Source: Prochlorococcus sp. HOT208_60m_813O14
GTDB lineage: Bacteria; Cyanobacteriota; Cyanobacteriia; PCC-6307; Cyanobiaceae
Direction: 5' to 3'
Length of the DNA: 64,000 nucleotides
Assembly (NCBI GenBank): GCA_002025945.1
Contig: MWOO01000143.1
Span: 1-64,000 of the forward strand
The notes under the pieces are model-generated. The model was given only the letters and a program-made list of their open reading frames with translations. It did no database searches and was not told the DNA's origin. This document shows, piece by piece, positions 1 to 17,313 of the stretch (position 1 is the stretch's first letter; each line of letters opens with the position of its first letter). A program made the translations under genes and the position numbers.

Positions 1-20
1 TATCCATTTTCTTTTGCTTC
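1..20. repeat. 20-base inverted repeat, left copy
   Basis: Positions 1-20 are the exact reverse complement of 2999-3018. The match stops at position 21, where the base differs, and cannot be followed left of position 1. Both copies encode the residues EAKENG plus two bases of the next codon of the same nuclease, so this is one gene sequence seen twice in opposite orientations rather than a dispersed repeat family. Confidence 0.9.
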
Positions 21-620
21 TTTGTCACAAAATTTTTGCCAGGAACAAATAGTACATTTTTTTCTATCTTGAGTTATTTCTGGTATAAATCCCTCCAAGC
101 ATTCATTCAAATCTAATAAAACATTTAAAACTTTTTTTCTTAATTTTTTATTTATATAAATTTCTTCAACTTTAACTTTTTTATTAAAAGTTGAAATTAC
201 TAATCCTTTCTCAATTTTAGATTCTTGAAAAGATTCCAAAAGCATAGAACAAAAAGCTAAATCGAATAAATGTTCTTTAGTAGTTTTGTGGCCTAACTTA
301 TAAACAGCAGGTAAATATTTATATTGTCCCCATTTACTTTTACCTTTAGTCTTTAAAAGTAATTGTGGAAGTATCTCTGCGTTTATATTTTGGAAAAGAG
401 TTCCTTTGATTTTTAATCCAATTACCCCTTGATAACCATTCTCACAGGCTTTTAAGCCTGTATATATTTCACCATTACAAAATTCAGAGAAAATTTGAAA
501 CTGATTAATTTTATCTATAGCTTTATGGGGAGACCAAACTTCATAAAATTTTTTACCCTTAAAATCGAGCCATGCTTTTCTTTTGCATCTTGTAAAACTT
601 TTTAAATGAAGAGAATTCAA
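1..620 (-). CDS. TM0106-type RecB/Cas4-like nuclease, N-terminal part (cut at window start)
   Basis: The minus strand encodes 206 residues and runs off the left edge. Residue 12 is the Cys of an FTRCKRKAWLDF opening, and Cys189, Cys192 and Cys198 form a CTICSWQKFC cluster. This is the four-cysteine iron-sulfur layout of Cas4/AddB-like nucleases. The frame has no ATG; TTG at 620 is the best start. The last residues, EAKENG, reappear at 2999-3016 on the plus strand at the head of the C-terminal half. Joining the halves would give about 472 residues, as I would expect for this putative RecB-nuclease family. Function is not established; a DNA nuclease role is inferred from the domains. Confidence 0.7.
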   Translation of the reverse strand, partial: MNSLHLKSFTRCKRKAWLDFKGKKFYEVWSPHKAIDKINQFQIFSEFCNGEIYTGLKACENGYQGVIGLKIKGTLFQNINAEILPQLLLKTKGKSKWGQYKYLPAVYKLGHKTTKEHLFDLAFCSMLLESFQESKIEKGLVISTFNKKVKVEEIYINKKLRKKVLNVLLDLNECLEGFIPEITQDRKKCTICSWQKFCDKEAKENG

Positions 621-700
621 ATTATTTTTTAAGGGCGGTTTTAAAATTTACTCATATAAATTAGTATAGATAATTAAAAGAAATCAAGGAAATTTGAAAT

Positions 701-2155
701 TTGACAGCTGACAAATTAGATAAGATAAAATTTGGAACTGATGGTTGGAGAGGAATTATTGGTTTTGACTTTAACCTGTCCAATCTTTCAAGAGTTGTTG
801 TCGCTGCATGTCAGGAGTTGCATTATCAATACTATAAAGAAGTTAATTCAAAGAAAATTATTATTGGATATGATCGTAGATTTATGGCATGTGAATTCGC
901 CAAGCAAATAGTGCCTTTTGTAAGAGGATGTGGTTTCGAACCGCTCTTATCTGATAGCTTTGTGACAACACCCTCTTGTAGTTTCTATGCCAAAGAAGTT
1001 GGTTGTCTTGGAGCGTTAGTAATTACAGCAAGTCATAATCCATATAATTGGCTAGGTCTGAAAATAAAGAGCTTTAATGGATGTTCTGTTGACGAATCTT
1101 TTACAAGTGAAGTTGAAAAAAGATTAATCCTTGGAAATTCAATTGAAAAAATAGATGGTATTAATCAATTGGTAGATATTAAGAAATTTCATTTAGATAG
1201 AATTAAATCGCTTTTTGATATTGACTATATTTCCAAGAGATTAAAAAAAATGAAATTGAGAATTTTTGTAGATTCTATGCATGGTTCAGCTGCAAATTGT
1301 ATGGCTGAGATTTTTGCTTCTAATGATTTAGAAGTTATTTCAGAAATCAGGAAAGATGCTGATCCTTTTTTTGGAGGAAACCCTCCTGAACCTCTTTTGA
1401 ATTATGCAGATAATCTAAAACAAACACTAATGAAAAATTCAACAAATGAAGTGAAAACTTTAGGAATTATATTTGATGGTGATGGTGATAGAATTGCGGC
1501 AATTGATGAAAAAGGAAAATACTCTAGCACCCAAGATTTACTCCCATACTTTATTAGCTTTTTGGGCGAAATTAAAAATAATTCTTATCCAGTTTTAAAG
1601 ACTGTTAGTGGTTCAGATATTATTAAAAATATATCAGAGAGTCAAAATAGAGATGTTTTTGAACTTCCAGTTGGCTTTAAATATATTGCTGAAAAAATGA
1701 TTAAAGAAAAAATATTTATTGGAGGAGAGGAATCTGGGGGAGTTGGTTTTGGTGACTTTATGCCTGAAAGAGATGCTCTATATGCAGCGATGGTTTTATT
1801 AAATGGAATTGCTGAAAAATCTCAATATTTATATGAAACCTTAGATGAAATTCAAGAAGATTTTGGGCCAAGTTTTTATAAAAGAATTGATATTAAATTT
1901 CCAAATCAGTCAGAAAAAAATAACGTAAAAGAATTTATCATAGATAATATTCCTGAGAATATTAATAATCACAAGTTAAAAAGTATCTCAAAGATCGATG
2001 GAATAAAGTTGAGAATTGATAAAAATTTTTGGCTTCTTTTTAGGTTTTCAGGAACGGAACCTCTCTTAAGGTTATATTGTGAAGCACCAAAAGAATCTTA
2101 TCTAATTGAGGTATTAGAGTGGGGTCAAGAATTTATAAATTTGGCAGGAAAATAA
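701..2155 (+). CDS. Phosphoglucomutase/phosphomannomutase family protein
   Basis: This 484-residue alpha-D-phosphohexomutase interconverts hexose 1- and 6-phosphates in the cytoplasm. It has the phosphoserine loop TASHNP (109-114, Ser111), the metal loop FDGDGDR, the sugar-binding loop GGEESGG and the C-terminal phosphate-binding RFSGTEPLLR, so all four catalytic regions are present. Start is TTG at 701, with AAGGA about 10 bases upstream. rdgB follows after 2 bases, suggesting co-transcription. It is divergent from the nuclease fragment at 620. A second family member, glmM, is at 33767 and has the SASHNP variant, so this one is more likely a glucose/mannose mutase. The exact sugar cannot be told from sequence. 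Confidence 0.9.
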   Translation: MTADKLDKIKFGTDGWRGIIGFDFNLSNLSRVVVAACQELHYQYYKEVNSKKIIIGYDRRFMACEFAKQIVPFVRGCGFEPLLSDSFVTTPSCSFYAKEVGCLGALVITASHNPYNWLGLKIKSFNGCSVDESFTSEVEKRLILGNSIEKIDGINQLVDIKKFHLDRIKSLFDIDYISKRLKKMKLRIFVDSMHGSAANCMAEIFASNDLEVISEIRKDADPFFGGNPPEPLLNYADNLKQTLMKNSTNEVKTLGIIFDGDGDRIAAIDEKGKYSSTQDLLPYFISFLGEIKNNSYPVLKTVSGSDIIKNISESQNRDVFELPVGFKYIAEKMIKEKIFIGGEESGGVGFGDFMPERDALYAAMVLLNGIAEKSQYLYETLDEIQEDFGPSFYKRIDIKFPNQSEKNNVKEFIIDNIPENINNHKLKSISKIDGIKLRIDKNFWLLFRFSGTEPLLRLYCEAPKESYLIEVLEWGQEFINLAGK

Positions 2156-2157
2156 GG

Positions 2158-2733
2158 ATGAAAAATTTATTTTTAGCAAGTAAGAATAAAGGTAAAATTG
2201 AAGAATATAAGAAATTGCTTGCTGGAGTTAATTGTAAATTGTTACTCCAGCCAGAATCATTAGAAGTTGAAGAGGATGGACTGACATTTAGAGATAATGC
2301 AATTAAAAAAGCGAGTGAAGTTTCGAGAAAAACGAATAATTTTTCAATAGCAGATGATTCAGGAATTTGTATTGAAGCGCTAGGTGGTAAGCCTGGCATT
2401 TACTCATCTAGATATGCAGAAAATGATCAGAAGAGAATTGAACGAGTTTTAAGAGAACTTGATGGAGTTCAAAATAGAAGTGCTTTCTTTATTGCAAATA
2501 TTTGTGTTTGTTCACCAAATGGTGAAGTGATTATTGAATCTGAGGCCAAATGTCATGGCAATATCATTTTAAACCCCAGAGGAAAAAGTGGTTTTGGGTA
2601 TGACCCAATTTTTGAGGAGAGTTCTACCAGATTAACTTTCGCAGAAATGAATAATGATATTAAAGAATCTTGTAGTCATAGAGGTAAAGCATTAAAAAAA
2701 ATTATTCCAGATTTAATTGAAATTTTTTCTTAA
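2158..2733 (+). CDS. rdgB: RdgB/HAM1 family XTP/dITP diphosphatase
   Basis: The 191-residue protein hydrolyses dITP, XTP and ITP to monophosphates, keeping deaminated purines out of nucleic acids. It opens with LFLASKNKGKIEEY, the family's triphosphate-binding segment, followed by ADDSGICIEALGG and FGYDPIF. I chose ATG 2158 rather than the in-frame ATG at 2119 because 2119 lies inside the mutase gene and the family starts right at this segment. The AAGG of the overlapping ribosome site covers the mutase stop codon. It converges on the oxygenase remnant that ends at 2736. Confidence 0.93.
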   Translation: MKNLFLASKNKGKIEEYKKLLAGVNCKLLLQPESLEVEEDGLTFRDNAIKKASEVSRKTNNFSIADDSGICIEALGGKPGIYSSRYAENDQKRIERVLRELDGVQNRSAFFIANICVCSPNGEVIIESEAKCHGNIILNPRGKSGFGYDPIFEESSTRLTFAEMNNDIKESCSHRGKALKKIIPDLIEIFS

Positions 2734-2735
2734 AT

Positions 2736-3005
2736 TCAATTAACCCAAGATCCATGAAGGCCATGAGGAATTGAAATGGGTAATTCATAAACAGCTAATT
2801 CTTTTAAGTCTTTTGCGTCTAATATCACTAAATCGCTTCCTCTTCTTTCTCCGTTCCATAGAAGTATAAATAAAAATCCTTCATCTTCTTTTGAAGAGTT
2901 ATCTGATGGAACCATAATTGGTTCACTTACAAATCCACTTGGACCTGCTAACCAATAAATTTCTTCCTTAGAAGTTAAATTTATTTTTTTTATTGCTTGA
3001 AGCAA
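2736..3005 (-). pseudogene. Carotenoid cleavage oxygenase, C-terminal fragment
   Basis: The minus-strand frame encodes the end of a retinal pigment epithelial membrane protein/carotenoid oxygenase: QAIKKINL, then GPSGFVSEPIMVP, SDLVILDAKDL and terminal IPHGLHGSWVN, which holds the last iron-ligand histidine. The family is usually around 490 residues; only about 88 remain. Homology stops near 3000, where the sequence switches to antisense of the nuclease gene. The frame stays open a little further, but those codons (and the TTG at 3005) come from the junction. The N-terminal part is not in this window and should lie left of position 1 if the segment is inverted. Confidence 0.8.
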
Positions 3006-3817
3006 AAGAAAATGGATATCTAACAGATATAGATGGAATAGGGTCCAAAACAGCCTCGTTACTCAAAGAAAATGGAATAACTAATACCCAAACATTAGCT
3101 TCGTTCAGCGAAAAACAGCTTGGAGAGAAATTGTCTAAATTCAAAGATCAGAAGTATGAAAAAGCATCAATATTTGTAAAGCAAGCACAAGCATATATCT
3201 CTGGAGAACCATATTTAATTTCCAATAAAAATAATACGGAAGATCTATTTGAAAAAATATGTTCGGGATTTTATATATTTGATATTGAGTCAAATCCAGA
3301 TGAAAAGCATGATTTTTTATATGGATTTTTAAAAGTAAATAATTTGTCTATAAAAAAAGAAGATCTTATTTATGAACCAATTTTAAATCTTAAAAACAAT
3401 AAAGGAGAATCTTACAGACAAATTATTGAAATACTTTTTTCACACAAGGAGTGGCCAGTCTTACATTACGGAGAAACTGAAAAAATATCAATAATTAATA
3501 TTGCTAAAGAACTAAATTTTAGTTTTGAAGAAATTCATTCACTTTCCTCCAGATTTATTGACCTACATACCTTAATAAGAAAGTCTTGGATATTACCACT
3601 AAAAAAATATGGTTTAAAAAATGTTTCTAATTGGCTTGGATTTGAATGGTCGCAGAAAAATGTAAGTGGCTCTAAAGCACTTTATTGGTGGATTCAATAT
3701 CAAATTACAGAAAACCAAATATTTTTAAAGAAAATTATCCAATATAACAAAGATGATTGTTTTGCTACTCTACAAATTGCAGAATATTTAATCAAAAATC
3801 GATTAAAGAAAAATTGA
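2993..3817 (+). pseudogene. TM0106-type nuclease, C-terminal part
   Basis: The frame holds the rest of the nuclease whose N-terminus is at 1-620. It has a helix-hairpin-helix stretch, DIDGIGSKTASLLKENGI, then a DnaQ/RNase H-like exonuclease domain with FDIESNP (the Asp-x-Glu pair), HYGETEKIS, and terminal YNKDDC, the last acidic residue of a DEDD-type site. The TTG at 2993 is a junction artefact: the true sequence begins at 2999 with EAKENGY, matching the other half. Without its N-terminus it would lack the iron-sulfur nuclease domain. The 3' end overlaps ygfZ by 15 bases, convergent. Confidence 0.75.
2999..3018. repeat. 20-base inverted repeat, right copy at the rearrangement junction
   Basis: This is the exact reverse complement of positions 1-20. 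It marks the point where carotenoid-oxygenase coding (left, minus strand) changes to nuclease coding (right, plus strand). The base just before it (2998, t) differs from the corresponding base at position 21, so the copy length is exactly 20 within what is visible. Confidence 0.9.
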
Positions 3818-4639
3818 TCCTACAGATTTATTTATAATAATTTTTCCAAAAATTTCTGAAAAAAAATAACTTCCTTCCTCTAAATATTTTCTTTTTATCA
3901 TAGCTAATCCTTTTATTTGAGAATCTAATTTTAAAAAACTAGTGATTTTGCCTACAGAAATATCCTTGGCAGAATTTATATATAAATTTTTATCTTCTAA
4001 GTCTAAATTAAAATTAGATTCAGTTGATTTCCAAATTCTTATTTCCTGTTTTAAGGAAGAAACATTTTTTATTTTTGACATTGTTTCTTGTCCTAAATAA
4101 CAACCTTTATTAAAATCTATAAGATCTTTTAATCCAAGCTCAAGAGGATTATTTTTCCCGTTTATTTCCATTTCTAATGAGGGTATTGCCTGATTAATCT
4201 TCCAAAGTTTTAAATCATTGGGATTTAGTAAATTTAGTTTATTTTTATATATTTCAAATTCTTTATCTTCTGTTTTGAAGAAAATAGGCTGGTAAGTTCT
4301 CCATGAACTGGATTCATCAATTTCCTGAATTCTATTTATCAAGGAAGGTTCACTCAGAAGTACATCGTCCGCTGGAAAAATAATTTGATTAAAGTAATCA
4401 ATTATTTCATTTGTGTTACCCGCCAAGATAATTACTTCTAAGCTTCTTTCTAAAAAAATAATTTCAATTAATGACCTTAGAACTCCATTTGGAGTTAACC
4501 AACAAGTTTTGATAACTTTATTTTCTGAATTAAGAATATTACCAGTTGTTATTCCATTCAAAAATTTTCTGGCATCATTTCCAGTAATTGAAAAATAATC
4601 AAATTTTTCAAGCCAAAACTTTTTTTTTATATCTTGCAT
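3803..4639 (-). CDS. ygfZ: YgfZ/GcvT-like folate-binding protein
   Basis: This 278-residue protein is related to the aminomethyltransferase GcvT. It carries the YgfZ signature KGCYLGQE (178-185), whose cysteine is essential in the E. coli protein. YgfZ acts with tetrahydrofolate in assembling or repairing iron-sulfur clusters. The signature separates it from true glycine-cleavage T-protein. Start ATG at 4639. pyrE lies 10 bases upstream on the same strand, so pyrE-ygfZ is probably one transcript. The 3' end overlaps the nuclease fragment. Confidence 0.88.
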   Translation of the reverse strand: MQDIKKKFWLEKFDYFSITGNDARKFLNGITTGNILNSENKVIKTCWLTPNGVLRSLIEIIFLERSLEVIILAGNTNEIIDYFNQIIFPADDVLLSEPSLINRIQEIDESSSWRTYQPIFFKTEDKEFEIYKNKLNLLNPNDLKLWKINQAIPSLEMEINGKNNPLELGLKDLIDFNKGCYLGQETMSKIKNVSSLKQEIRIWKSTESNFNLDLEDKNLYINSAKDISVGKITSFLKLDSQIKGLAMIKRKYLEEGSYFFSEIFGKIIINKSVGSIFL

Positions 4640-4649
4640 TTTGAAATAA

Positions 4650-5210
4650 TTATAAAAAGTCTTTTATTGTAAAAAGACTCTTTAATTTAACATTTTCATC
4701 TTCAAGTGCTTCTAATCCCCCTTCTTGCCTATCAACTATAGACAAAACTTCCTCAACAACATAATTGTTTTCTCGTAATTTTTTTATAGCTTTTATCACT
4801 GAACCAGCAGTTGTAACCACATCCTCTAAGACAGTTACCAAAGTTCCTTCTTCTAATATAGGGCCCTCTATTCCAGCTTTGGTACCGTATTTTTTGATTT
4901 CTTTCCTAATTATTAAACCATCAAGTTCTAGTCCATTCAAAGCTGCTTTAACAATTAATCCACTTACTATAGGATCTGCACCTAATGTCAATCCTGCTAC
5001 AGCTTTTGACCTTGAGTCCTTTAAATCTAAAAATAATTCACTTATTAAGTTTAAGCCTTCACCATTTAATGACACTGGTTTACAGTTCAAGTAATGACTG
5101 CTTTGTTTTCCTGAAGATAAAGTAAAGTTTCCTTTTTTGTAAGATTTTTCAATTAACTGTTTTAACAATTTTGCTTTATTTAAATCATACTTATCCGAAA
5201 ATTTGCCCAT
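4650..5210 (-). CDS. pyrE: Orotate phosphoribosyltransferase
   Basis: The 186-residue enzyme joins orotate to PRPP to form orotidine monophosphate in pyrimidine synthesis. The PRPP-binding motif [14 protein letters not shown] is at about 126-139, and [13 protein letters not shown] marks the substrate loop. It shares a strand with ygfZ, 10 bases upstream of it. A 20-base perfect palindrome (5323-5342) lies about 115 bases ahead of the start. Another pyrimidine gene, pyrB, is at 42689 and is unlinked, as is usual in this group. Confidence 0.94.
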
Positions 5211-5322
5211 TAGTAAAAGTTTAATTTATATTTAAAGATTAGAAGAAAAAAAAGAAATCTCACAAAAACTTCCTAATGAGGTGTTTTTTGAAATATTATT
5301 TTTATATTGTATATTGAAATTC

Positions 5323-5342
5323 AATGTAATTAAAATTACATT
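5323..5342. promoter_or_regulatory. Perfect 20-base palindrome between pyrE and tRNA-Met, matching GTA-N8-TAC
   Basis: AATGTAATT-AA-AATTACATT has two perfect 9-base arms. It contains TGTA-N8-TACA, the full NtcA consensus with its flanking T and A. It is 9 bases before the tRNA-Met and about 115 bases before pyrE. Neither side has a TAnnnT box at the 22-24 base spacing expected for NtcA activation, so binding is uncertain. If bound, a roadblock or repressor role is easier to imagine than activation. Confidence 0.35.
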
Positions 5343-5351
5343 AATTCCCTT

Positions 5352-5424
5352 GGGGGTGTAGCAATCTGGTGAATGCACCAAACTCATAATTTGGCTAAGG
5401 CGAGTTCGATCCTCGCCACCCCCA
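5352..5424 (+). tRNA. tRNA-Met (CAT), elongator type
   Basis: 73 bases fold into a cloverleaf: acceptor GGGGGTG/CACCCCC (7 pairs), D arm GCA...TGC, anticodon stem CCAAA/TTTGG with loop CTCATAA (anticodon CAT), variable CTAAG, and T arm GCGAG-TTCGATC-CTCGC. The discriminator is A and no CCA is encoded. A CAT anticodon can also belong to tRNA-Ile with lysidine; the loop favours elongator Met. It lacks the three G-C pairs at the foot of the anticodon stem that mark initiator tRNA. Confidence 0.92.
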
Positions 5425-5442
5425 TTATTCATTTGTCATTGA

Positions 5443-6711
5443 ATGAAAATAACTTTACTTATATTTCTTTTATTTTTACCAGCCTTTTTCGCAGCGAGTG
5501 AACTCTCTTTTTTATTAATAAGGCCAAGTAAAGTTTTAAGGTTAATAGAAGAAAAAAAGAAGGGAGCATTTGCAATTTTAAAAATTCAAAAACGCTTTAG
5601 ATCTTCATTAATTGCTTCTCAATTTGGAGTGACAATTTCATTAATTGCAATTGGATGGCTAAGCAATAACCTGGCTAATGATTATTGGAAAAGAAATATT
5701 TTATCAAATAGATTTTATGATCTTCTATTATTTTTATTTGTTGTTTTAGTTGTTACTCTTGTTTCTGGACTAATTCCTAAAGCTTTAGTAATTAATAATC
5801 CAGAATCTGCTGCATTAAAGTTAACTACAATATTCGATGCCGTAAGAAAAGCCATGAATCCTATTGTGAAAACAATAGAATTCTTTGCTAGCGCCTGTTT
5901 AGGCTTGTTTAATTTAAATAACAAATGGGATTCTTTAAACTCGGGTTTATCTGCTGGAGAATTAGAAACTCTCATAGAAACAGATAATGTAACAGGTTTA
6001 AAACCAGATGAGAAGAATATTCTTGAAGGGGTTTTTGCTTTAAAAGATACACAGGTTAAAGAAGTGATGATTCCAAGATCTGAAATGGTAACTTTGCCAA
6101 AAAATATAACCTTTTCAGAACTTATGAAACAAGTCGATAAAACTCGACATGCTCGCTTCTTTGTGATTGGTGAGTCTTTAGATGATGTATTAGGTGTATT
6201 AGATTTGCGTTATCTAGCTAAGCCAATATCAAAAGGTGAAATGGAAGCCGATACATTATTAGAGCCATTCCTTTTACCAGTAACAAAAATAATAGAAACA
6301 TGTTCACTAGCAGAAATATTTCCAATAGTAAGAGACTACAATCCGTTCTTACTAGTAGTTGATGAACACGGTGGGACAGAGGGGCTCATAACTGCAGCTG
6401 ATCTTAATGGTGAAATAGTTGGAGAGGAAATGCTCAATAATAGAATTTATTCAGATATGAGAATGTTAGATAATTTCTCTAAAAAATGGTCAATAGCGGG
6501 AAAATCAGAAATTATAGATATCAATAAAAAGTTAGGATGTTCTATTCCAGAAGGGGCAGACTATCATACCCTTGCTGGATTTCTGCTAGAAAAATTTCAA
6601 ATGGTTCCAAAGATTGGCGATGTTTTAGATTTTAGTAACATTAAATTTGAAGTTATTTCTATGTCAGGTCCAAAAATTGATCGTGTTAAAATTATTCTTC
6701 CCAAAAGCTAA
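5443..6711 (+). CDS. CNNM/CorC-type membrane protein with CBS domains
   Basis: The protein has 422 residues. The N-terminal third is a CNNM (DUF21) transmembrane domain starting with a hydrophobic run that contains ASELSFL, with further membrane segments to about residue 145. A CBS pair follows (about 195-330; VMIPRSEMV and DEHGGTEGLIT), then a CorC/HlyC C-terminal domain with AGKSEI and DYHTLAGFLL. This architecture belongs to proteins tied to magnesium/cobalt homeostasis, often labelled hemolysin-like. Ion specificity cannot be read here. Start ATG 18 bases after the tRNA-Met. Confidence 0.85.
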   Translation: MKITLLIFLLFLPAFFAASELSFLLIRPSKVLRLIEEKKKGAFAILKIQKRFRSSLIASQFGVTISLIAIGWLSNNLANDYWKRNILSNRFYDLLLFLFVVLVVTLVSGLIPKALVINNPESAALKLTTIFDAVRKAMNPIVKTIEFFASACLGLFNLNNKWDSLNSGLSAGELETLIETDNVTGLKPDEKNILEGVFALKDTQVKEVMIPRSEMVTLPKNITFSELMKQVDKTRHARFFVIGESLDDVLGVLDLRYLAKPISKGEMEADTLLEPFLLPVTKIIETCSLAEIFPIVRDYNPFLLVVDEHGGTEGLITAADLNGEIVGEEMLNNRIYSDMRMLDNFSKKWSIAGKSEIIDINKKLGCSIPEGADYHTLAGFLLEKFQMVPKIGDVLDFSNIKFEVISMSGPKIDRVKIILPKS

Positions 6712-6761
6712 ATGTGGCTTCCCATAGAGGATAATGATAATTAATATATGGATTTGAAATT

Positions 6762-7766
6762 ATGCAGCCAACCTCATCACCAGTAAAGGTTGGAGTCATA
6801 GGTATAGGGAATATGGGTTGGCATCATGCACGAGTACTAAGTTTGCTCAAAGATGCAAATCTCATTGGAGTTGCAGATCCAAATGAAGAGAGAGGCAAAT
6901 TAGCTATTGAGCAATTCCAATGTGAATGGTTCAAAGACTATAAAGACTTAATTCCAAAAGTTGATGCTATCTGTGTCGCTGTCCCAACACTACTTCATCA
7001 AAAAGTAGGACTAGATTGTCTTAATGGAGGTACTAACGTTCTCATTGAAAAACCAATTGCAGCTAACGAGTTAGAAGCAAAATCTTTAATAGAGGCTGCT
7101 AAAGCAAGTAACTGTCTATTACAAGTTGGGCATATTGAAAGATTTAATCCTGCTTTTAGAGAATTAAATAAAATAGTTCATAATGAAGAAATTGTTGTTT
7201 TGGAAGCAAGAAGACATAGTCCTCATGCAGATAGAGCAAATGATGTATCTGTAGTAATGGATTTAATGATCCATGACATTGATCTAATTTTAGAACTCGT
7301 CAACTCCAAAATACAAAAATTAGCGGCAGTTGGAGGCAGAAATAGTGAAGGATTAATAGATTATGTCAATGCTACTTTAGTTTTTAAAAATAATGTTATT
7401 GCAAGTTTAACTGCCAGTAAAATGAGTCACAAAAAAATTAGGAGTTTAAGTGCTCACTGCCAAAATGGACTAGTAGAAACTGATTTTTTAAATCACTCTC
7501 TTCACATCCATAGAAAGTCTCATGAATCATACACTGCAGAACATGGAGAATTAGTTTATAGAAATGACGGATATGTCGAAGAAGTTAGCACAACCTCCAT
7601 TGAGCCTCTTTATGCAGAATTGGAGCATTTTCTTAAGTGCGTTCAGGGCAAAGAAATACCTGAGGTGGATGGTGAGCAAGCCTCAAGAGCATTAAAAATT
7701 GCTGATTTTATAGAGAGTGCAGTAGAAAATTCCGGAGATGCGATTTTACTTGAAAATCCAGTCTAA
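6762..7766 (+). CDS. Gfo/Idh/MocA family NAD(P)-dependent oxidoreductase
   Basis: The protein has 334 residues. The N-terminal Rossmann fold shows GVIGIGNMGWHHA (11-23), and IEKPIA near residue 96 is the family's catalytic-lysine EKP motif. The C-terminal half (MIHDIDLILEL) fits the Gfo/Idh substrate domain. Members act on sugars, inositols or biliverdin; the substrate cannot be assigned. The gene starts 50 bases after the CNNM gene on the same strand and converges on psbK, 26 bases away. Confidence 0.82.
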   Translation: MQPTSSPVKVGVIGIGNMGWHHARVLSLLKDANLIGVADPNEERGKLAIEQFQCEWFKDYKDLIPKVDAICVAVPTLLHQKVGLDCLNGGTNVLIEKPIAANELEAKSLIEAAKASNCLLQVGHIERFNPAFRELNKIVHNEEIVVLEARRHSPHADRANDVSVVMDLMIHDIDLILELVNSKIQKLAAVGGRNSEGLIDYVNATLVFKNNVIASLTASKMSHKKIRSLSAHCQNGLVETDFLNHSLHIHRKSHESYTAEHGELVYRNDGYVEEVSTTSIEPLYAELEHFLKCVQGKEIPEVDGEQASRALKIADFIESAVENSGDAILLENPV

Positions 7767-7792
7767 TACTAACAATCTTAACTAAAAGAATT

Positions 7793-7933
7793 TTATTTAA
7801 ATCCAACAGCAGCTTGCCAAACAAACACTAATAAAAAGAAAAATAAAGGAATCAGTGGAAGAACATCAACGGTTGGAGCAAAGGCCTTATAAGCCTCGGG
7901 CAATTCAGCGAATGTATTAAATAGAATGAGCAC
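7793..7933 (-). CDS. psbK: Photosystem II protein PsbK
   Basis: A 46-residue minus-strand protein begins at GTG 7933. The short leader [10 protein letters not shown] is followed by the mature sequence [19 protein letters not shown], one membrane helix and terminal WQAAVGFK, all typical of PsbK, a single-helix subunit on the periphery of the photosystem II core. It lies 33 bases after tgt on the same strand, so it may be read from the tgt transcript or from its own promoter inside that gap. Confidence 0.92.
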
Positions 7934-7966
7934 CTTTTTGATAATTTAATTAATTATGATAAGACG

Positions 7967-9085
7967 TTACCACGTATGGTGAGCAATAGAGGATGTTTTC
8001 CAAGGAGCGAAATCATTTGTAAAACAATTATCTCTAATTGCATTAGAAATTGCATTGGTAAATCTTATTAAGTGAGCAATATTATGCAAACTTATAAGAG
8101 TTAGGCCTAATATTTCGTCATTTCTAATTAGATGATGCAAATATGCTCGAGAATAGGATTTACAGGTTTCGCATTTACAAGTTTTATCAATCGGAGAAAA
8201 GTCATTTTTAAATCGAGCATTTCGCAAATTCAATCTTTCATCATTAAAGAATGCAGTCCCATGTCTCCCTAGTCTTGTAGGCAAAACACAGTCAAATATA
8301 TCGAATCCATTAGCAACAGCTAGAGAAATTTCTTTTAAGGAGCCAATTCCCATTAAATATCTTGGTTTATTTATTGGTAAGAATTTCGGGACGTAATTAA
8401 TTACACTATGTATTTCTTCGACTGCCTCGCCAACACTTACACCTCCCACTGCTATTCCAGGAAGATCAAAAGAACTTGTATATTTTGCACTGTATTCTCT
8501 CAATCTCGGATACTTTCCGCCTTGAACTATACCGAATAATGCTTGATTGGATTTCTGATGAGTCTCAACACATTTTTGCAACCATGAATGAGTTCTTTGT
8601 AAAGAGTCCTCAATATCATTTTCGTTAGCTGTATGCGGAGGACAATGATCAAAAGCCATCGCAACATCCGATCCAAGATCCATTTGAATTTGTATTACTT
8701 TTTCAGGTGATAAAAAAACATGACTACCATCTCTTGGATTTTTAAATTCCACGCCTTTATCAGAAATATTATTTAATTTGGCCAAACTAAAAACTTGATA
8801 TCCTCCTGAATCAGTAAGAATAGGCTTCTGCCAATTCATGAACTTATGTATTCCGCCAGATTCTTTTACTAGTTTTTCTCCAGGTTGTAAATGAAGATGA
8901 AAGGTATTTGAAAGAATCATTTCTGATCCTGTAGAGGTTAACTGCTTAGATGAAATTCCTTTAACCGTTGCCAAAGTACCCACAGGCATAAATTTTGGTG
9001 TGTTTACCTGACCATTTGGTGTATGAAATATACCAGTTCTTGCCGCTGTATTACTGCAATTCGATGTAATTTCAAATTCAAACAC
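7967..9085 (-). CDS. tgt: tRNA-guanine transglycosylase
   Basis: The 372-residue enzyme exchanges guanine 34 for a queuosine precursor in tRNAs with GUN anticodons. It has substrate loop [12 protein letters not shown] (Asp92), nucleophile loop [13 protein letters not shown], and the zinc-binding [17 protein letters not shown]. Start is GTG at 9085; no better upstream codon exists. Downstream psbK shares the strand. Length and motifs are complete. Confidence 0.95.
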
Positions 9086-9183
9086 GATAATTTATAAAAT
9101 TTTTTAATCCTTTTTCATTAATTTACCCTATTATTTAATATTGAATCTATTTTTATCTCATCAAAAAATATTTAATAAAAAAT

Positions 9184-9924
9184 TTGGCAGGATCTTGGAT
9201 TTTTTATACAACATTTCCAAAGATACCTTTAATTAACCCCGAATTTAAAAATATTGCACAATTTGCCCCGCCTTTAGGATTTTTGATTGGAACAATACAG
9301 AGTTATATTTTTCTTTTTTTAACAACTAACTCTTGGTCAATTTATTCATCTGCATTAATTTGTTTGGCTTCAGGATATTTAATTACTGGTGGTCTACATA
9401 TTGATGGTTTAATGGATACTTTCGATGGTATTTTTGCGGGTAAAAAGAAGCGTTTAAAAGCCATGAAAGACAGTAAAGTTGGTTCCTTTGGCGTTCAAGC
9501 TTTAGTTTTTATAACTTTAATTCAAATTGCTTGCATACTGAAAATTCAAAACCTAGTAATTTTTGTTTTACCTATATGCTTATTTTGGGGAAGATTTTCA
9601 AATTTATTTTTTATAGAAAAGTTTAAATATATGAGTTATAAGAAAAAATCTGTTAGTCACAAAAAGTTTTGGAATGGATTTAAAAAAGAATCTTTGATCT
9701 CCATTATTTTTCTTTTAATTTTCATTGCATACCAATTTGTTTCAATTACATCCAAAGCAATATTAATTAAATTTTTAATTCTTATTTTGATTGGTATTTT
9801 TCTAAGCTATTGTATCCCAAACATACTGGGTAATAAAATTGGAGGCTTTAACGGAGATGCCTGCGGTGCAAGTGTTGTTCTAGTTGAAACTGCAATGTTA
9901 TTTATGCATGCAATTCTTTTATAG
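9184..9924 (+). CDS. cobS: Adenosylcobinamide-GDP ribazoletransferase (cobalamin synthase)
   Basis: This 246-residue membrane protein joins the lower ligand to adenosylcobinamide-GDP, the late step of (pseudo)cobalamin synthesis. The family motif GGLHIDGLMDTFDGIFAGK (about 75-93) has its acidic residues; five or so hydrophobic segments follow, and NGDACGA is near the end. TTG 9184 is the only standard start. In-frame codons upstream (IKNLAGSW) read like family sequence, so translation may begin a few codons earlier at a rare codon. The 3' end overlaps the convergent kinase gene by 23 bases. Confidence 0.9.
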   Translation: MAGSWIFYTTFPKIPLINPEFKNIAQFAPPLGFLIGTIQSYIFLFLTTNSWSIYSSALICLASGYLITGGLHIDGLMDTFDGIFAGKKKRLKAMKDSKVGSFGVQALVFITLIQIACILKIQNLVIFVLPICLFWGRFSNLFFIEKFKYMSYKKKSVSHKKFWNGFKKESLISIIFLLIFIAYQFVSITSKAILIKFLILILIGIFLSYCIPNILGNKIGGFNGDACGASVVLVETAMLFMHAILL

Positions 9925-11038
9925 GTAGTTCTAAATAAAAAATATTTTTCTTCTTAAGATTTTTTGATTTATCAGTATTATCTAACGAGTTACTTTCCAG
10001 CAATCTCAAATCTCCTCCAATTTGTTTTGCTAATTTCCTCGCCAAAAAAAGTCCCACACCAGTGCCGTCCTTCTTTTTAGCAGCAGATCCTCTAAAACCT
10101 TTTTCAAAAATTTTCTCGTTTTCATTTTTGGTTATTTTTTTACCACCATCAAATATACAGAGTCCATTAATCGTAATTGCGAGCCCAATTTCAGCATCTT
10201 TTTGGGCATATTTAAACGCATTTTCTAATAGATTTGCCACAATTTCAGCAATTACAGCATATTTTGCCTTTAATGGCGAAATAGTCCAATCTGGCCAAAG
10301 AGACGGTTCAGTCCAATCTCTATTCTCTAAGTCCGCATTAGCTTTACCCCTTTCTAATATTGGCCTTAATAAACTCTGAACAGTTATAACCTTTTTATTA
10401 TCTAAATTTGGTGGTAATAATAATCTTTCCTCTCCAATTTCCAGAGGAAGTTGAATAGGTGAATTTAATTGAGCAAAAGAATCCATATATTGATTAATTT
10501 GTTTTTGCTCTATTATCATGCGTTCGACTATTTCTATAGAATCATCATCTGAACCAAGTCTTTTTATTAATAATTTTGCGTATGTTCTAATAGCAGCTAA
10601 TGGATTCCTTAATTGATGAATTATGACATTGACCTGATTTTTTAAATAATTGACTTCTTCATTTTTATTTTGACGTTCTAATTCGATAGAGACACATTTA
10701 GCTAAAGATATTGATAAAGCTTTTAATCTGGAATCGAGAGATACTGGCCAATTCCCCCCTTTCAAATCAGTTTCTACCCGAAGGACACCAAGTAGAATAT
10801 CGTTTTCTTGTAGCGGGTACCATCTTCTATTAGGCGATGAAACCTTTAGGGAAGGATCATCTTCTATTGAAGTAAGTAGCCGATCAATTTGCGGCCATTG
10901 ACCAATCATTTCAAAAGATGCTTTAGTTCCTTGCTTAGCTGAAGCAAGATACATAACTAAATTAGTCACGCCCATTGAGCAACCAAAACTCTCTAGCTGT
11001 TTTAAAATTAACTCTTCAAATTTTTTTGAAAGATTCAT
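9902..11038 (-). CDS. Hik2/CSK-like sensor histidine kinase
   Basis: The protein has 378 residues and no membrane segment. Its GAF-like N-terminal region has Cys20. The phosphoacceptor box is IIHQLRNPLAAIRTYAKLL with His141, the N-box is ANLLENAFKYA, and the G2 box is GTGVGLFLARKLAKQIGG. An H-box starting HQLRNPL with this domain order resembles cyanobacterial Hik2 and the chloroplast sensor kinase, which sense redox state or salt; that match is from memory of the family. No response regulator gene is adjacent. Confidence 0.75.
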   Translation of the reverse strand: MNLSKKFEELILKQLESFGCSMGVTNLVMYLASAKQGTKASFEMIGQWPQIDRLLTSIEDDPSLKVSSPNRRWYPLQENDILLGVLRVETDLKGGNWPVSLDSRLKALSISLAKCVSIELERQNKNEEVNYLKNQVNVIIHQLRNPLAAIRTYAKLLIKRLGSDDDSIEIVERMIIEQKQINQYMDSFAQLNSPIQLPLEIGEERLLLPPNLDNKKVITVQSLLRPILERGKANADLENRDWTEPSLWPDWTISPLKAKYAVIAEIVANLLENAFKYAQKDAEIGLAITINGLCIFDGGKKITKNENEKIFEKGFRGSAAKKKDGTGVGLFLARKLAKQIGGDLRLLESNSLDNTDKSKNLKKKNIFYLELPIKELHA

Positions 11039-11119
11039 GATTAATGAAATGTTGAGAAATTTTTTAAAAAAAAACTTGAAAAAGGTCTTGTAAAATATGA
11101 AAAAAGTATTAAGATATAT

Positions 11120-11290
11120 AAAGAGGTCTGACTTTAGCCAGCCTTGAATATGAATATTTAATCATATTTTAAGCTACATCAGGGGTTGATGGGTCCTCTA
11201 TGTAATTTGAAGTGAATTTAAAATCACATATATAAGATTAGTAAAAATAAATAAGACTAATCTCATTAATAATTTCAGGAGTACCAATCA
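11120..11290 (+). promoter_or_regulatory. Long structured leader ahead of the DUF3155 gene
   Basis: The ~250-base gap is the longest without a gene. An AT-rich TATATA near 11113-11120 could be a -10 box. Downstream, AGAGG (about 11121) and CCTCT (about 11195) could pair around an inner hairpin AATATGA/TCATATT (about 11149-11170). AGGAG sits 8 bases before the ATG at 11291. The leader would be about 165 bases, long for this genome. It matches no riboswitch I recognise. Confidence 0.3.
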
Positions 11291-11659
11291 ATGTCAAAAA
11301 AAAGAAAAAGAATCAGCAGAAGAAGATTGGCTGGCCAAAGAGTAATGGCACATGTACCTATTTATCATATCGAAACTGGCAAACATAAACCAGTTACAGC
11401 AGCAAGAAGATTCATAGCTGAAAATGGTCTCTCTGCACCTTCAGTTTTTAATGTAAGAAGAAATGAACATACCACCGATAGATTTTTTTGGGGTGAAAAA
11501 GGATTATTTAGCGCCCAATATGCTGAAGAAAATCATTTTCTATTTCCATCACTAAAAGTTGTAGTCGAAGGAATTGGTGAAGAAAAAATCTTTGAGGGTC
11601 TAGAACTGACTGCAGATGATTGGGAAGAGATTGAAGAATATGAATACGCTTTTGTTTAA
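11291..11659 (+). CDS. DUF3155 family protein
   Basis: The 122-residue protein has a strongly basic start (SKKRKRISRRRLAGQRVMA) followed by YHIETG, PVTAARRFIAENG and RRNEHTTDRFFWGEKGLF, then an acidic tail. This layout is conserved in cyanobacteria as DUF3155; function is unknown. The basic N-terminus could bind nucleic acid. A good ribosome site (AGGAG) precedes ATG 11291. It ends 4 bases into the convergent hydrolase gene. Confidence 0.8.
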   Translation: MSKKRKRISRRRLAGQRVMAHVPIYHIETGKHKPVTAARRFIAENGLSAPSVFNVRRNEHTTDRFFWGEKGLFSAQYAEENHFLFPSLKVVVEGIGEEKIFEGLELTADDWEEIEEYEYAFV

Positions 11660-12273
11660 AAAATATTACTTATATTTGAACTTATAAAATTAATTAAATT
11701 TGAATCAATTTGATGAAATCCATCAAATTCTAATAATTCACAAAATTTAGAAGACTTACTCTTTACCTTTTCATAAATAGTCCTAGAAGCATCTATAGGC
11801 ACAACGTCATCAAATAAACCATGACTAACAATTAATGGCGAGAATTTTTCTCCTGGGGACCAGTTGGGATGAGGATAACCACTACAAGCAACAATTAATC
11901 CAAAATTTAACTTAAATCCCGCATCAATTGCCATCGCCGCCCCCTGAGAGAACCCCAACAAAATTGTTTTTCTTAGTGGAATCTTATCAGTATCAAAATT
12001 TTTTAATGTAACTAAAAGTTTATTTACTTCAACCTCAGCGCCATTCCAATCATGTGGATATAATCCATACCACTGTCTTCCCTGACCGCTTGGGTGTAAT
12101 CCAGGAGCCCTCAAAGAAATTACCTCAAAATCAAGATTTATTTTTTCAGTCATCTCCTTTCCAAAAGTTAAAAGGTCATCTGAATCAGCTCCCCAACCAT
12201 GCATCAAAATAATTCTATGAGTTGCAGTTTGAGAGCTAATCGAGACAAATTCATGATTGATAGCATATTTCAT
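11656..12273 (-). CDS. Alpha/beta hydrolase, carboxylesterase-like
   Basis: The 205-residue protein carries a complete serine-hydrolase set: oxyanion region HGWGADSDDLL (25-35), nucleophile elbow GFSQGAA, acid in DDVVP, and a late histidine in GFHQID. This resembles the phospholipase/carboxylesterase branch. Substrate unknown. It is divergent from purH with 33 bases between start codons, so the two promoters overlap. Confidence 0.8.
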   Translation of the reverse strand: MKYAINHEFVSISSQTATHRIILMHGWGADSDDLLTFGKEMTEKINLDFEVISLRAPGLHPSGQGRQWYGLYPHDWNGAEVEVNKLLVTLKNFDTDKIPLRKTILLGFSQGAAMAIDAGFKLNFGLIVACSGYPHPNWSPGEKFSPLIVSHGLFDDVVPIDASRTIYEKVKSKSSKFCELLEFDGFHQIDSNLINFISSNISNIF

Positions 12274-12306
12274 GTTTATATTCTTAAGTAAGTAAACTTT
12301 CTCATA

Positions 12307-13860
12307 ATGTCTCCACTAGCTTTAGTAAGTGTCTCTGATAAAAAAAATATAATCCCATTTTGTAGGGAATTGGTAGAGCAATTTAATTATAAAATTCTAT
12401 CAAGTGGAGGTACTGCCAAACATCTTATAGAGGCTAAAATTCCAGTTATTAAAGTTGCTGATTTTACTAATTCTCCAGAAATTCTTGGGGGAAGAGTTAA
12501 AACTTTACATCCAAAAATACACGGGGGAATATTAGCTAAAAGAACTGATGAGGAACATAAAAAAGATATAGAAGCTAACAATCTTGAATTAATAGACTTA
12601 GTTGTTGTAAATTTATATCCTTTTAAAAAAACTGTAGATCAGAAAGCTAAATGGGAAGATGCTATTGAAAATATCGATATCGGAGGGCCATCTATGATTC
12701 GTTCTGCAGCTAAAAATCATAAAGATGTTTCCGTTTTAGTAGATCCTAGTCAGTATCAAAATTTTCTTGAGGAAAGTAAAAAAGGTGAGTTGAAAGATTC
12801 ATATAAAGCAAAATTAGCCCTTGAAGCTTTTCAACATACAGCAGACTATGACACTGCAATATCTAATTGGATAAGAAAAGAAAAAGATTTACAATCTTCC
12901 AAATTTATCGAATCTTATCCACTAATCAAAACCTTAAGATATGGGGAGAATCCCCATCAAAAAGCTTTCTGGTATGGTTTAAGTAACATTGGATGGAACT
13001 CAGCAGAACAATTACAAGGAAAAGACTTAAGTTATAACAATCTACTAGATCTAGAGTCTGCACTTTCAACAGTTTTAGAATTTGGCTACAGAGAAAAAGA
13101 TGAGCTTTCAACCGACATGTTTGCCTCAGTAATTTTAAAACACAATAATCCTTGTGGTGCCTCTATAAGTAATTCAGCCTCTAAAGCATTTTTGAATGCT
13201 TTGGAATGCGACTCTGTAAGTGCATTTGGAGGAATAGTTGCTTTTAATTCAAATGTTGATAGTGACACCGCAATTCATCTCAAAGACATTTTCTTAGAGT
13301 GTGTCGTCGCTCCATCTTTTGATGAGGAAGCTTTAGAAATTTTAAAAGTTAAAAAGAATTTAAGAATTTTAAAATTTTCAAAAGATCAACTTCCAAAAAA
13401 GAATCAAAATTCTACTAAATCAATAATGGGAGGATTACTAGTTCAAGATACTGACGATAGTGAAGAAAAAACTGAAAATTGGATTTCAGTAACTAATAAA
13501 AATCCGAGTAATCAAGTTAACCTAGATCTGAATTTTGCATGGAAAATTTGTAAACACGTGAAATCTAATGCCATTGTTATTGCAAAAGACCAAAAAACTA
13601 TTGGTATTGGAGCTGGACAAATGAATAGAGTTGGAGCAGCAAAAATTGCATTAAAAGCAGCTGGAAGTTTAAGTTCTGATGCTGTCTTAGCCAGCGATGG
13701 TTTTTTCCCATTTGCAGATACTGTAGAACTAGCAAATCAATATGGAATAAAAGCTATTATTCAACCTGGAGGAAGTCTAAGAGACCAAGAAAGTATTGAT
13801 ATGTGTGATTCGAAAGGAATCTCAATGGTATTTACGCAAAAAAGGCATTTTTTGCATTAA
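12307..13860 (+). CDS. purH: Bifunctional AICAR formyltransferase/IMP cyclohydrolase
   Basis: The 517-residue enzyme carries out the last two steps of purine synthesis. The N-terminal MGS-like domain (IMP cyclohydrolase) starts ALVSVSDKKNIIPF and includes LSSGGTAKHL. The AICAR transformylase domain has LRYGENPHQ, ILKHNNPCGAS and terminal DTVELANQYGIKAIIQPGG. Length is normal. ATG 12307 is the first codon of the family alignment. It ends 2 bases before the convergent DoxX gene. Confidence 0.96.
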   Translation: MSPLALVSVSDKKNIIPFCRELVEQFNYKILSSGGTAKHLIEAKIPVIKVADFTNSPEILGGRVKTLHPKIHGGILAKRTDEEHKKDIEANNLELIDLVVVNLYPFKKTVDQKAKWEDAIENIDIGGPSMIRSAAKNHKDVSVLVDPSQYQNFLEESKKGELKDSYKAKLALEAFQHTADYDTAISNWIRKEKDLQSSKFIESYPLIKTLRYGENPHQKAFWYGLSNIGWNSAEQLQGKDLSYNNLLDLESALSTVLEFGYREKDELSTDMFASVILKHNNPCGASISNSASKAFLNALECDSVSAFGGIVAFNSNVDSDTAIHLKDIFLECVVAPSFDEEALEILKVKKNLRILKFSKDQLPKKNQNSTKSIMGGLLVQDTDDSEEKTENWISVTNKNPSNQVNLDLNFAWKICKHVKSNAIVIAKDQKTIGIGAGQMNRVGAAKIALKAAGSLSSDAVLASDGFFPFADTVELANQYGIKAIIQPGGSLRDQESIDMCDSKGISMVFTQKRHFLH

Positions 13861-13861
13861 A

Positions 13862-14422
13862 TTAAGTTGATTTTGGATAATAAGTAATTTTGTTAGTCTT
13901 TCTAAATAAGGAGAGCCTGCCCGGACCTGCACATAGAAAATATAGAGAAATAGCACCATATATGAAAGACAATTCGAAGGCATAATTGTGACCTTCTACT
14001 ACTGCAAGGGGAAAACCTTCTAGGCCGGTATCTAGAAGATGAAAATAAACAGCAAATGCCATTGTAGAGAAAAGCCCTAGAGAAGAAAGCCTTGCAAATA
14101 TCCCTAAAGCCAACCCTACTGGGCATACTAATTGAGTGATCGCCGCTCCAAAAGTCCAAATAACAGGATCTCCTGGTAAAAATGGGAAATACTTACCAAC
14201 TACAAACTCAGCAAAACCCTGCGGATCCTGAAGTTTTTCTAAGCCATGATGAATCATCAAAGCACAAAAACCAATTCGTAAAACAAAAATTGATAATTCC
14301 CCAAGGATATTTACTTCTGAACCAGTAGATGAATTGGCAACTACAACTTCAACTTTTTGGGGAGCTTTAGTTCTATTCATACTTGCAGTTTGAACCTGAT
14401 TAGATTGTGATTTGTCTTCCAT
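13862..14422 (-). CDS. DoxX family membrane protein
   Basis: This is a 186-residue membrane protein. A polar N-terminus of about 40 residues is followed by four hydrophobic segments, including FVLRIGFCALMIHHGLEKL (the DoxX entry), AAITQLVCPVGLALGIFAR and FELSFIYGAISLYFLCAGPG. The family is loosely linked to thiosulfate-quinone oxidoreductase subunits or to membrane redox roles; no specific function can be claimed here. It stands alone between purH and ispH. Confidence 0.8.
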   Translation of the reverse strand: MEDKSQSNQVQTASMNRTKAPQKVEVVVANSSTGSEVNILGELSIFVLRIGFCALMIHHGLEKLQDPQGFAEFVVGKYFPFLPGDPVIWTFGAAITQLVCPVGLALGIFARLSSLGLFSTMAFAVYFHLLDTGLEGFPLAVVEGHNYAFELSFIYGAISLYFLCAGPGRLSLFRKTNKITYYPKST

Positions 14423-14526
14423 ACATCATAATTTTTTTATTATTCTAAATAATAAAGTAGATATTTTGGCATTATCTGACTAATAAATTTAAAAAACTCA
14501 GTAAAGTTCTAAATGAAATAAAAAAT

Positions 14527-15723
14527 TTAAGAAGCAATATCAACTAACTTCTCTATTACATCTGCCACAACCTTATCAGGAGTTGATGCACCTGAGGTAA
14601 TCCCAACATTAATTTTTCCACTAGGTAAAAAATTATTTTTAAGTTCTAAATCTGATCCTAGTGGCTTATGTAATATTGAATTTTCTTCTACTGATATCCT
14701 CTCTGGCGTATCTATGTGAAAAGAAGAAATATTTTTAGTAATTGCTATTTCTTGTAAGTGCGTAGTATTCGAAGAATTGAAGCCTCCTATAACAACAAGA
14801 ATATCAAGATCTTCATCAACCAAAGAGAACATTGCGTCTTGTCTTTCTTCAGTTGCATCACAAATAGTATTAAAAGCTAAAAAGTGGCTATTCAAGTTAT
14901 CTGGTCCAAATTTTTTTAACATCGTTCTTTCAAAAACTTTTCCAATTTCTTCGGTCTCACTTTTAAGCATAGTTGTCTGATTAGCAACTCCGACTCTATC
15001 TAAATCTTTATCAGGATCAAATCCATTAGAACAAGCTTTAGCAAATTTATTCATAAATTCATTTCTATTACCTCTACCCATAATGTATTCAGATACATAA
15101 TTTGCTTCTTTTAGATCAAGTACAACTAAATATTTCCCTGCGAATGAACTAGTAGCGAGAGTTTCTTCATGCTTAAATTTTCCATGAATAATTGATGTAA
15201 AAACATGTTTTTTATGTTTCTCGACAGTATGCCAAACCTTAGAAACCCATGGACAAGTTGTATCAATGATATGACAACCTTTCTCATGAAGGAGTTTCAT
15301 TTCTTGAACAGTGGCTCCGAAAGCAGGCAATATAACTACATCCCCATTAGAAACTAACGAAAAATCTTTAATTCCATTTTTAGCTGAAATGAACTTTACA
15401 TTCATTTTTCTTAAATGATCGTTAACCGAAGGATTATGAATTATTTCGTTTGTTATCCAAATATTCTCATTGGGATAATGTCTTCTGGTCTCATAAGCCA
15501 TTGCTACAGCTCTTTCAACTCCCCAACAGAAACCAAATGCTTGAGCTAACTTAATATTTAGTCTACCTTTGGTGTAAGTGAAACCATTATCTCTTATTGA
15601 ACTTATCAAATCACTTTGGTAAGCTTCTTCTAATGCTTGAGCTCTTTTTGTTGGAGAATCGAAACCCCTTCTATTATATCTATCAGAATGATGAAGAGAT
15701 CTTCTAAAAGCTTGAGTATCCAT
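14527..15723 (-). CDS. ispH: 4-hydroxy-3-methylbut-2-enyl diphosphate reductase
   Basis: The 398-residue enzyme makes IPP and DMAPP in the last step of the MEP isoprenoid pathway, feeding chlorophyll phytol tails and carotenoids. Three iron-sulfur cysteines are visible in [23 protein letters not shown] and [11 protein letters not shown]. The extended N-terminus ([15 protein letters not shown]) marks the cyanobacterial/plant form, longer than the ~315-residue E. coli type. The amt1 terminator lies just upstream, isolating the two transcripts. Confidence 0.95.
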
Positions 15724-15757
15724 CTTTTTATATTACAACGTTTTAAATAATTTTTCG

Positions 15758-15792
15758 TAAAAAAAAAGAAACCTGACATAAGTCAGGTTTCT
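15758..15792 (-). terminator. Intrinsic terminator of amt1
   Basis: An 11-base stem, AGAAACCTGAC (15767-15777) and GTCAGGTTTCT (15782-15792), closes a 4-base loop. On the minus strand it is followed by a T run (A run at 15758-15767 on the plus strand). It sits 20 bases after the amt1 stop and before ispH, whose start is at 15723. Confidence 0.88.
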
Positions 15793-15812
15793 TAAATCGT
15801 TTTTTAGTTAGG

Positions 15813-17273
15813 TTATTTAGCAGATGCAAAGTCTGGATATGCTTCCATTCCATGCTCTCCTATATCTAAGCCTTGTGTCTCTTCCTCTTCAGATACACGG
15901 ATTCCTCCGAATAATCCTCCAATTACAGACCAAGCGATCCAGCAAGTAACTAGTGTCCAAATAGCATAAGCTGCGGCACCAAGAGCTTGAACTAGAAGAA
16001 GGGTAATACCTCCACCATTGAACAATCCCATACCTGCTCCATCACCTTGTACAGCTGTACCCCAAAGACCGATAACTACAGTACCCCATACACCACAAAC
16101 TCCGTGAACAGAGAATGCACCTACAGGATCATCGATCTCAGCGGCATCAAGTGCTGCAACAGAAAATACAACGATAATTCCTCCTACTAGTCCTGCGAAC
16201 CAGGCTCCAGCAAGAGTCATATCACCACAACCAGCAGTGATACTAACCAAACCAGCAAGGATTCCGTTAATAATCATTGTAAGATCAGGCTTACCAGAAG
16301 TTAATGTTGAAACAATAGTTGCTCCAATAGCACCAGCAGCGGCTGCCAAAGTAGTTGTTACAGCAACATATGGAACCCATTGATCCATAGCAAGTTGAGA
16401 ACCGGGGTTAAATCCGTACCAACCTATCCATAGTACTAATGCACCTAGAGTAGCTATAGCCATATTGTGTCCTGGCATAGCCTGTGGCTTTCCATCAGAG
16501 TATTTGCCAATTCTTGGTCCAAGAAGCATAGCTCCTACAAGACCAGCCCATGCTCCAACTGAGTGAACAATTGAAGAACCAGCAAAATCAACAAAACCTA
16601 AAGAATCAAGCCAACCGCCATTCCATTTCCAGCTACCAGCAATTGGATATATAAATGCAGTTAATACAACAGCAAAAACAACAAATTCTCCAAATTTAAC
16701 TCTTTCAGCAACAAGACCGGAAACGATAGTTGCTGCAGTTCCTGCAAAAGCAGACTGGAACAAGAAATCAACAGTTGGGACTAATCCAGCGTCAGTTACC
16801 ATATCTGCAGTAACTGTTGGATCAAAAAATAAGCCGCCAAAATAAAGCCAACCGTCGGCAACACTTCCTCCGTACATTAATGAATAGCCGATAAACCAAT
16901 AAGAAGTTACAGCTAGAGCAAATACAAAGAGGTTTTTAGCAAGAATGTTAACAGCGTTCTTAGAACGGCACATACCTGCCTCAACCATAGCGAAACCGGC
17001 GTTCATAAAGATCACTAAAATAGTAGCGATCAAAAGCCATAAATTGTTAGCAAGAAAAGCTGCATTCAACTCAGGTAAATCAGCTGCGTGAGCTGAAAGA
17101 TTAAAAATACCTAAACCAAACAAAGCTAGGGGAACAGTTGCAAGCCACAACATGGAGCGGTTTGAACTAAATCCTCGAATACTCCTCAAAAGGAGCATAG
17201 GTCCATTAACAAGACTTGCATCTTGAAGTTTGGACCTAGAGCGCCTTTGAGGCGTTTGCAAAGCAGTGGTCAT
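15813..17273 (-). CDS. amt1: Ammonium transporter
   Basis: This is a 486-residue Amt family channel for ammonium uptake across the plasma membrane. A polar leader and a signal-like segment ending NLSAHAADL (about 56-64) precede eleven hydrophobic helices. The paired pore histidines are within SIVHSVGAWAG and FSVHGVCGVWG. GGWLDSLGFVDFAGS is a family hallmark. The upstream region has a full GTA-N8-TAC box with a matched -10, so nitrogen limitation through NtcA should activate it. A strong terminator ends the single-gene transcript. Confidence 0.96.
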   Translation of the reverse strand: MTTALQTPQRRSRSKLQDASLVNGPMLLLRSIRGFSSNRSMLWLATVPLALFGLGIFNLSAHAADLPELNAAFLANNLWLLIATILVIFMNAGFAMVEAGMCRSKNAVNILAKNLFVFALAVTSYWFIGYSLMYGGSVADGWLYFGGLFFDPTVTADMVTDAGLVPTVDFLFQSAFAGTAATIVSGLVAERVKFGEFVVFAVVLTAFIYPIAGSWKWNGGWLDSLGFVDFAGSSIVHSVGAWAGLVGAMLLGPRIGKYSDGKPQAMPGHNMAIATLGALVLWIGWYGFNPGSQLAMDQWVPYVAVTTTLAAAAGAIGATIVSTLTSGKPDLTMIINGILAGLVSITAGCGDMTLAGAWFAGLVGGIIVVFSVAALDAAEIDDPVGAFSVHGVCGVWGTVVIGLWGTAVQGDGAGMGLFNGGGITLLLVQALGAAAYAIWTLVTCWIAWSVIGGLFGGIRVSEEEETQGLDIGEHGMEAYPDFASAK

Positions 17274-17292
17274 AAAAAAAAATTAGATCTGC

Positions 17293-17313
17293 AAAAAAAC
17301 AGTTTTACTGTTT
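17293..17313 (-). promoter_or_regulatory. Short hairpin plus T run in the amt1 leader
   Basis: On the minus strand AAACAGT-AAA-ACTGTTT forms a 7-base stem, with a run of seven T at its 3' edge, about 20 bases before the amt1 start codon and downstream of the predicted transcription start. It looks like a weak terminator or attenuator. The stem has only two G-C pairs, so it may be little more than chance in AT-rich DNA. Confidence 0.35.

Follow-up and report, generated by a model that had tools for sequence, protein, structure and literature searches.

The window analysed here is a stretch of 64,000 bases, positions 1-64,000 of contig C50 (153,005 bases) in a Prochlorococcus assembly (G000) of 1,353,740 bases in 248 contigs, which is 76.1% complete. 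Position 1 of the window is the end of the contig. The features found at this end are as follows:

1-20, plus strand: contig end, a 20-base tail that is an exact inverted copy of 2999-3018; very probably genuine nuclease sequence, which in relatives runs on directly into 21 and beyond
3-620, minus strand: N-terminal half of a TM0106-family RecB/Cas4-like nuclease (TIGR03491 match, profile 2-211), truncated by the contig end
701-2155, plus strand: phosphoglucomutase/phosphomannomutase-family gene, intact, inside the reversed segment
2158-2733, plus strand: RdgB/HAM1-type XTP/dITP diphosphatase gene, intact (listed open reading frame 2119-2733; ATG at 2158 read by eye)
2736-3002, minus strand: C-terminus of a PF03055-family carotenoid oxygenase, interrupted at the joint
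2999-3002, no strand: joint, very probably chimeric, with the four-base microhomology GAAG; placed by the ends of the relatives' matches
2999-3817, plus strand: C-terminal half of the same TM0106-family nuclease (TIGR03491 match 2993-3817, profile 207-462 of 462)

Two interrupted genes and a 20-base inverted repeat

Using profile searches, we found that the two nuclease halves each score above the cut-off (97.45 bits) of TIGR03491, the TM0106 family of RecB-like putative nucleases, and that together they span positions 2-211 and 207-462 of the 462 of the profile, as a full-length member would. On these sequence matches, the split gene is assigned to a TM0106-family RecB-like putative nuclease. 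The adjoining profile parts bear out the preliminary description of this DNA, which had read a TM0106-type nuclease split between 1-620 on the minus strand and a part from 2999 onward on the plus strand. It had also stated that flipping the segment restores a frame of about 472 residues, and the halves rejoined through the 20 bases do give a single open frame of 472 residues plus a stop. Similarly, the carotenoid oxygenase C-terminus that it saw cut at 3000 corresponds to a PF03055 (RPE65 / carotenoid oxygenase) match at 2736-3005 on the minus strand, which covers only positions 381-469 of the 469 of that profile.

The exact 20-base inverted repeat formed by 1-20 and 2999-3018, already noted in that description, was confirmed by an inverted-pair search of positions 1-4200, where it ranked first of 65 pairs and was the only one with 100% complementarity among the 25 listed. 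Base composition gives a probability of about 3e-7 for such a 20-mer on one strand of 64 kb, and apart from these two places no exact copy of it occurs in the readable part of the assembly.

The locus in relatives

We compared the locus with two sets of relatives. The first comprised 60 genomes: that of the window itself, 36 others of its genus and 23 of its class. The second was obtained by searching named genomes with the gene at 701-2155, which found 173 relatives, the best 80 of which were kept; in this set of 80, 77 records carry the title Prochlorococcus and three that of uncultured Synechococcaceae, single-cell-style names are frequent, and two records are titled MIT 9314 and MIT 9401. 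We take the latter two to be cultured isolates. Both sets contain some of the same genomes, such as G023 (its contig 1 and JFLX01000001.1 agree in length and coordinates), so the two counts are not independent.

In 30 of the 36 same-genus relatives, the two sides of the joint lie on opposite strands of one contig with an overlap of 15-21 bases (in one of them, G012, just 88 bases of the second side were matched). Two others (G020 and G032) matched part of the first side only, and the remaining four (G019, G026, G030 and G031) gave no long match to either side. Outside the genus, only G056, of the same class, had matches, all of them short, and no match listed for the relatives of the 60-genome set crosses the joint. 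The alignment to other Prochlorococcus genomes that the preliminary description had proposed as a check gave the same picture in the named loci (best 80 of 173): the sides are colinear in 77 of them, with an overlap of 18-21 bases (exactly 20 in 72), and the other three have the same layout cut by the end of the locus. The joint of the window is spanned in none of these best 80 (of 173), and its 40 bases occur in none of them. The 20-mer is present once in 61 of the best 80 (of 173), absent from 19 and never present twice, so there is no pre-existing repeat in these relatives to recombine or to mislead an assembler.

The genes concerned were also traced in the named loci (best 80 of 173), where motifs located the end of the oxygenase in all 80 and an open nuclease frame in 68; three single oxygenase frames are of 352, 218 and 390 residues, against the usual 495-522. 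Beyond the joint, window positions 3000-22900 (19.9 kb) form one unbroken match in each of the four near-complete relatives, so that, as far as 22900, only the first 3 kb is anomalous.

Position of the joint

In most relatives one match to the window covers 1-3002 and a second, on the opposite strand, begins at 2999, which places the joint within the four bases 2999-3002. Among the named loci (best 80 of 173), the bases after 2998 on the oxygenase side are GAAG in 76 of the 80, and the base that follows is T in 78 and A in two, never the C of the window; on the nuclease side, the bases before 3003 are GAAG in 79 of the 80, preceded by A in 79. The window reads T-GAAG-C, that is, oxygenase through GAAG and nuclease from GAAG, and these four bases are the only ones common to both sides in the best 80 (of 173). 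The sites so joined are about 3.0 kb apart in the relatives and in inverted orientation.

The sequence expected beyond the oxygenase lies to the right of the joint in G023 (contig 1, about 460,691-489,000, 28.3 kb). Queried with G023 only, this stretch of about 28 kb had no long match in the readable sequence of the assembly. The next sequence of the assembly found in that direction is contig C58 (G023 position 489,434 onward), which is itself chimeric. The small contigs that were checked (below 3 kb; 28 of 28) consist entirely of N, so small contigs could contain the oxygenase side.

Other contig ends of the same assembly

We scanned the other contigs of the assembly for ends of the same kind. 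Stretches from 87 of the 248 contigs were available, the other 161 contigs being outside the scan; 57 of the 87 were dropped as shorter than 3 kb (28 of 28 whose N content was counted were all N, and the other 29 were set aside by length alone), and the 30 that were readable and of at least 3 kb gave 57 ends, a count that leaves out the far ends of C65, C67 and C111. The scan demands an exact match of the first 12 bases, so imperfect tails would escape it. Three of the 57 ends (those of C50, C54 and C99) are inverted copies, over exactly 20 bases, of an internal stretch of their own contig, a fourth (C58) carries a longer repeat, and the remaining 53 share at most 16 bases:

C50 start tail: inverted copy of 2999-3018 of 153,005, 20 bases
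C54 end tail, 4420-4439: inverted copy of 3645-3664 of 4,439, 20 bases, 0.8 kb inside
C99 start tail, 1-20: inverted copy of 4101-4120 of 22,264, 20 bases, 4.1 kb inside
C58 end tail, 86 bases: inverted copy of its own 2075-2160, a longer repeat

Five controls at inner offsets yielded no repeat of exactly 20 bases. Their matches were of 12-18 bases, apart from one of 60, which is what remains of the C58 repeat at that offset, and four self-matches, which the control did not exclude: two of 624 and two of 768 bases, the lengths left of C60 and C102 at that offset.

C54 aligns without a break to its three best relatives over 1-4423, as does C99 to its own three from 16 onward, and only four (C54) and five (C99) bases are shared with the tail; in more distant relatives the match ends a few bases earlier or is broken elsewhere. 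From this continuity it follows that the true sequence of both contigs lies inside and that the 20-base tail is the chimeric side. As judged from these alignments, the tails of C54 and C99 appear to be further edges of fold-back chimeras, and C50 would be their opposite, with a true tail and a chimeric inner joint. C58 (1-10472) consists of two pieces, 1-2610 and 2603-10388, which overlap at 2603-2610, lie on opposite strands in relatives among the matches listed, and are 1.6 kb apart in G023; it carries a further fold-back tail at 10370-10472. A single tail length at three places, with both true and chimeric sides seen, is what would be expected from a branch of the assembly graph with an overlap of 20, a value drawn from three cases, such tails being present at only four of the 57 ends.

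Origin of the joint

We propose, with a probability of about 95%, that the joint is a fold-back chimera of multiple displacement amplification (MDA) in contig C50 and not a biological feature, and that the organism itself very probably has both the nuclease and the oxygenase gene in intact form. An MDA-amplified single cell is the probable source, given how fragmented and incomplete the assembly is, the chimeras in it, and the names of its relatives, most of which are in single-cell style. The order in the cell would be the far side of C50 down to 3019 (reversed), the 20 bases, 21-3002 and then the rest of the oxygenase. A single Prochlorococcus cell would have been amplified by phi29 MDA; a strand whose synthesis had reached about 3002, in the oxygenase gene, would have been displaced in a strand switch, its last four bases (GAAG) may have annealed within the nuclease gene, about 3 kb off, to another displaced strand, and extension would then have run backwards. 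The chimera would then have been assembled into C50, the assembler presumably taking the chimeric edge, so that nothing of the true edge remained but the 20-base tail with which the contig ends.

For comparison we used PMC1855051, which we take to be the work of Lasken and Stockwell (2007), and PMC2731171, presumably with Rodrigue as first author (2009). According to the former, 85% of 475 MDA chimeras were inverted, 337 of the 475 were both inverted and less than 10 kb apart, and in more than 70% priming had occurred at 2-21 complementary bases, the mechanism being the reannealing of displaced 3' ends to displaced strands nearby (PMC1855051). For Prochlorococcus MED4, the latter reports a frequency of about one chimera per 10 kb in amplified single cells, and two single-cell libraries had seven chimeric contigs each (PMC2731171).

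The C50 joint resembles the MDA chimeras so described in PMC1855051: nearby segments are joined in inverted orientation (77 of the best 80 of 173 named loci are fully colinear, three being cut by the locus end), the joined sites are about 3.0 kb apart and thus within 10 kb, and the four complementary bases fall within the range of 2-21. It differs from them in being found in a contig after assembly and not in a read, and in that the amplification history is deduced. As in the single-cell Prochlorococcus assemblies of PMC2731171, non-contiguous regions are linked in contigs, but the work there was on MED4 and had a reference genome, a place that relatives take here. Inverted joints also recur at unrelated sites of the same assembly (C54, C99 and C58, that is, four of the 57 ends including C50). 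The preliminary description had leaned towards an artefact, namely an inverted chimera of single-cell amplification, and the relatives, the microhomology, the position at the contig end and this recurrence all support it.

A real and very recent inversion of about 3 kb in this one cell, in which a staggered break duplicated the 20 bases and broke both genes, would agree with the clean joint and with the two intact genes within 1-3002, and the window taken alone would read the same in either case. It is nevertheless most unlikely: the end of the contig would have to fall by chance precisely on the second breakpoint, the layout is seen in none of the best 80 (of 173) named loci, the same 20-base inverted tail is present at two other places in the assembly, and the second joint was not found, the oxygenase side being absent from the readable sequence. 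Slimmer still are the chances of a pure assembler error that joined distant sites through a common 20-mer with no chimeric molecule involved. The exact length of the shared 20-mer does resemble a k-mer overlap, but the 20-mer is single (61) or absent (19) in the best 80 (of 173) named loci, the two sides share only four bases, and the inverted joints of C58 have a different tail length. The view of the preliminary description that the exact short overlap is an assembler k-mer stands in part: the 20 bases fit a tail of the assembler's overlap length, but an overlap present beforehand, which could have misled the assembler, does not agree with a 20-mer of at most one copy per locus (best 80 of 173) and with sides that share only GAAG. 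The shared sequence is better read as a tail at a branch of the assembly graph, and hence as a consequence of the chimera.

We also considered a programmed DNA-inversion switch with 20-base inverted repeats, since exact repeats of that length do flank the segment. This candidate was rejected and we give it almost no credence, because the repeat is present in at most one copy in each of the best 80 (of 173) named loci and never flanks the segment there; besides, the segment carries two ordinary genes, and no recombinase was found with family profiles among the five open reading frames of 1-3817.

Consequences for annotation

If the joint is an MDA fold-back chimera, as we propose, it holds nothing new as biology, not being a real feature of the genome. 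For curation, it is worth noting that this contig can yield two false truncated genes as well as a carotenoid oxygenase that looks truncated. A contig end that recurs in inverted form, at one fixed length, a few kb further into its own contig is a signature easily scanned for; our scan flagged three of 57 ends, and a fourth with a longer repeat, and could help to screen single-cell assemblies.

The joint also creates a short odd palindrome, TTGCTT-G-AAGCAA (2993-3005), which is absent from the 19 relatives shown, whose oxygenase side has GAAGT or GAAGA at this point. The TTG start of the listed nuclease frame 2993-3817 (plus strand), at 2993, falls on the oxygenase side of the joint, and that of the listed oxygenase frame 2736-3005 (minus strand), at 3003-3005, falls on the nuclease side. 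As both starts lie across the joint, automatic gene calls at 2993-3005 could be false.
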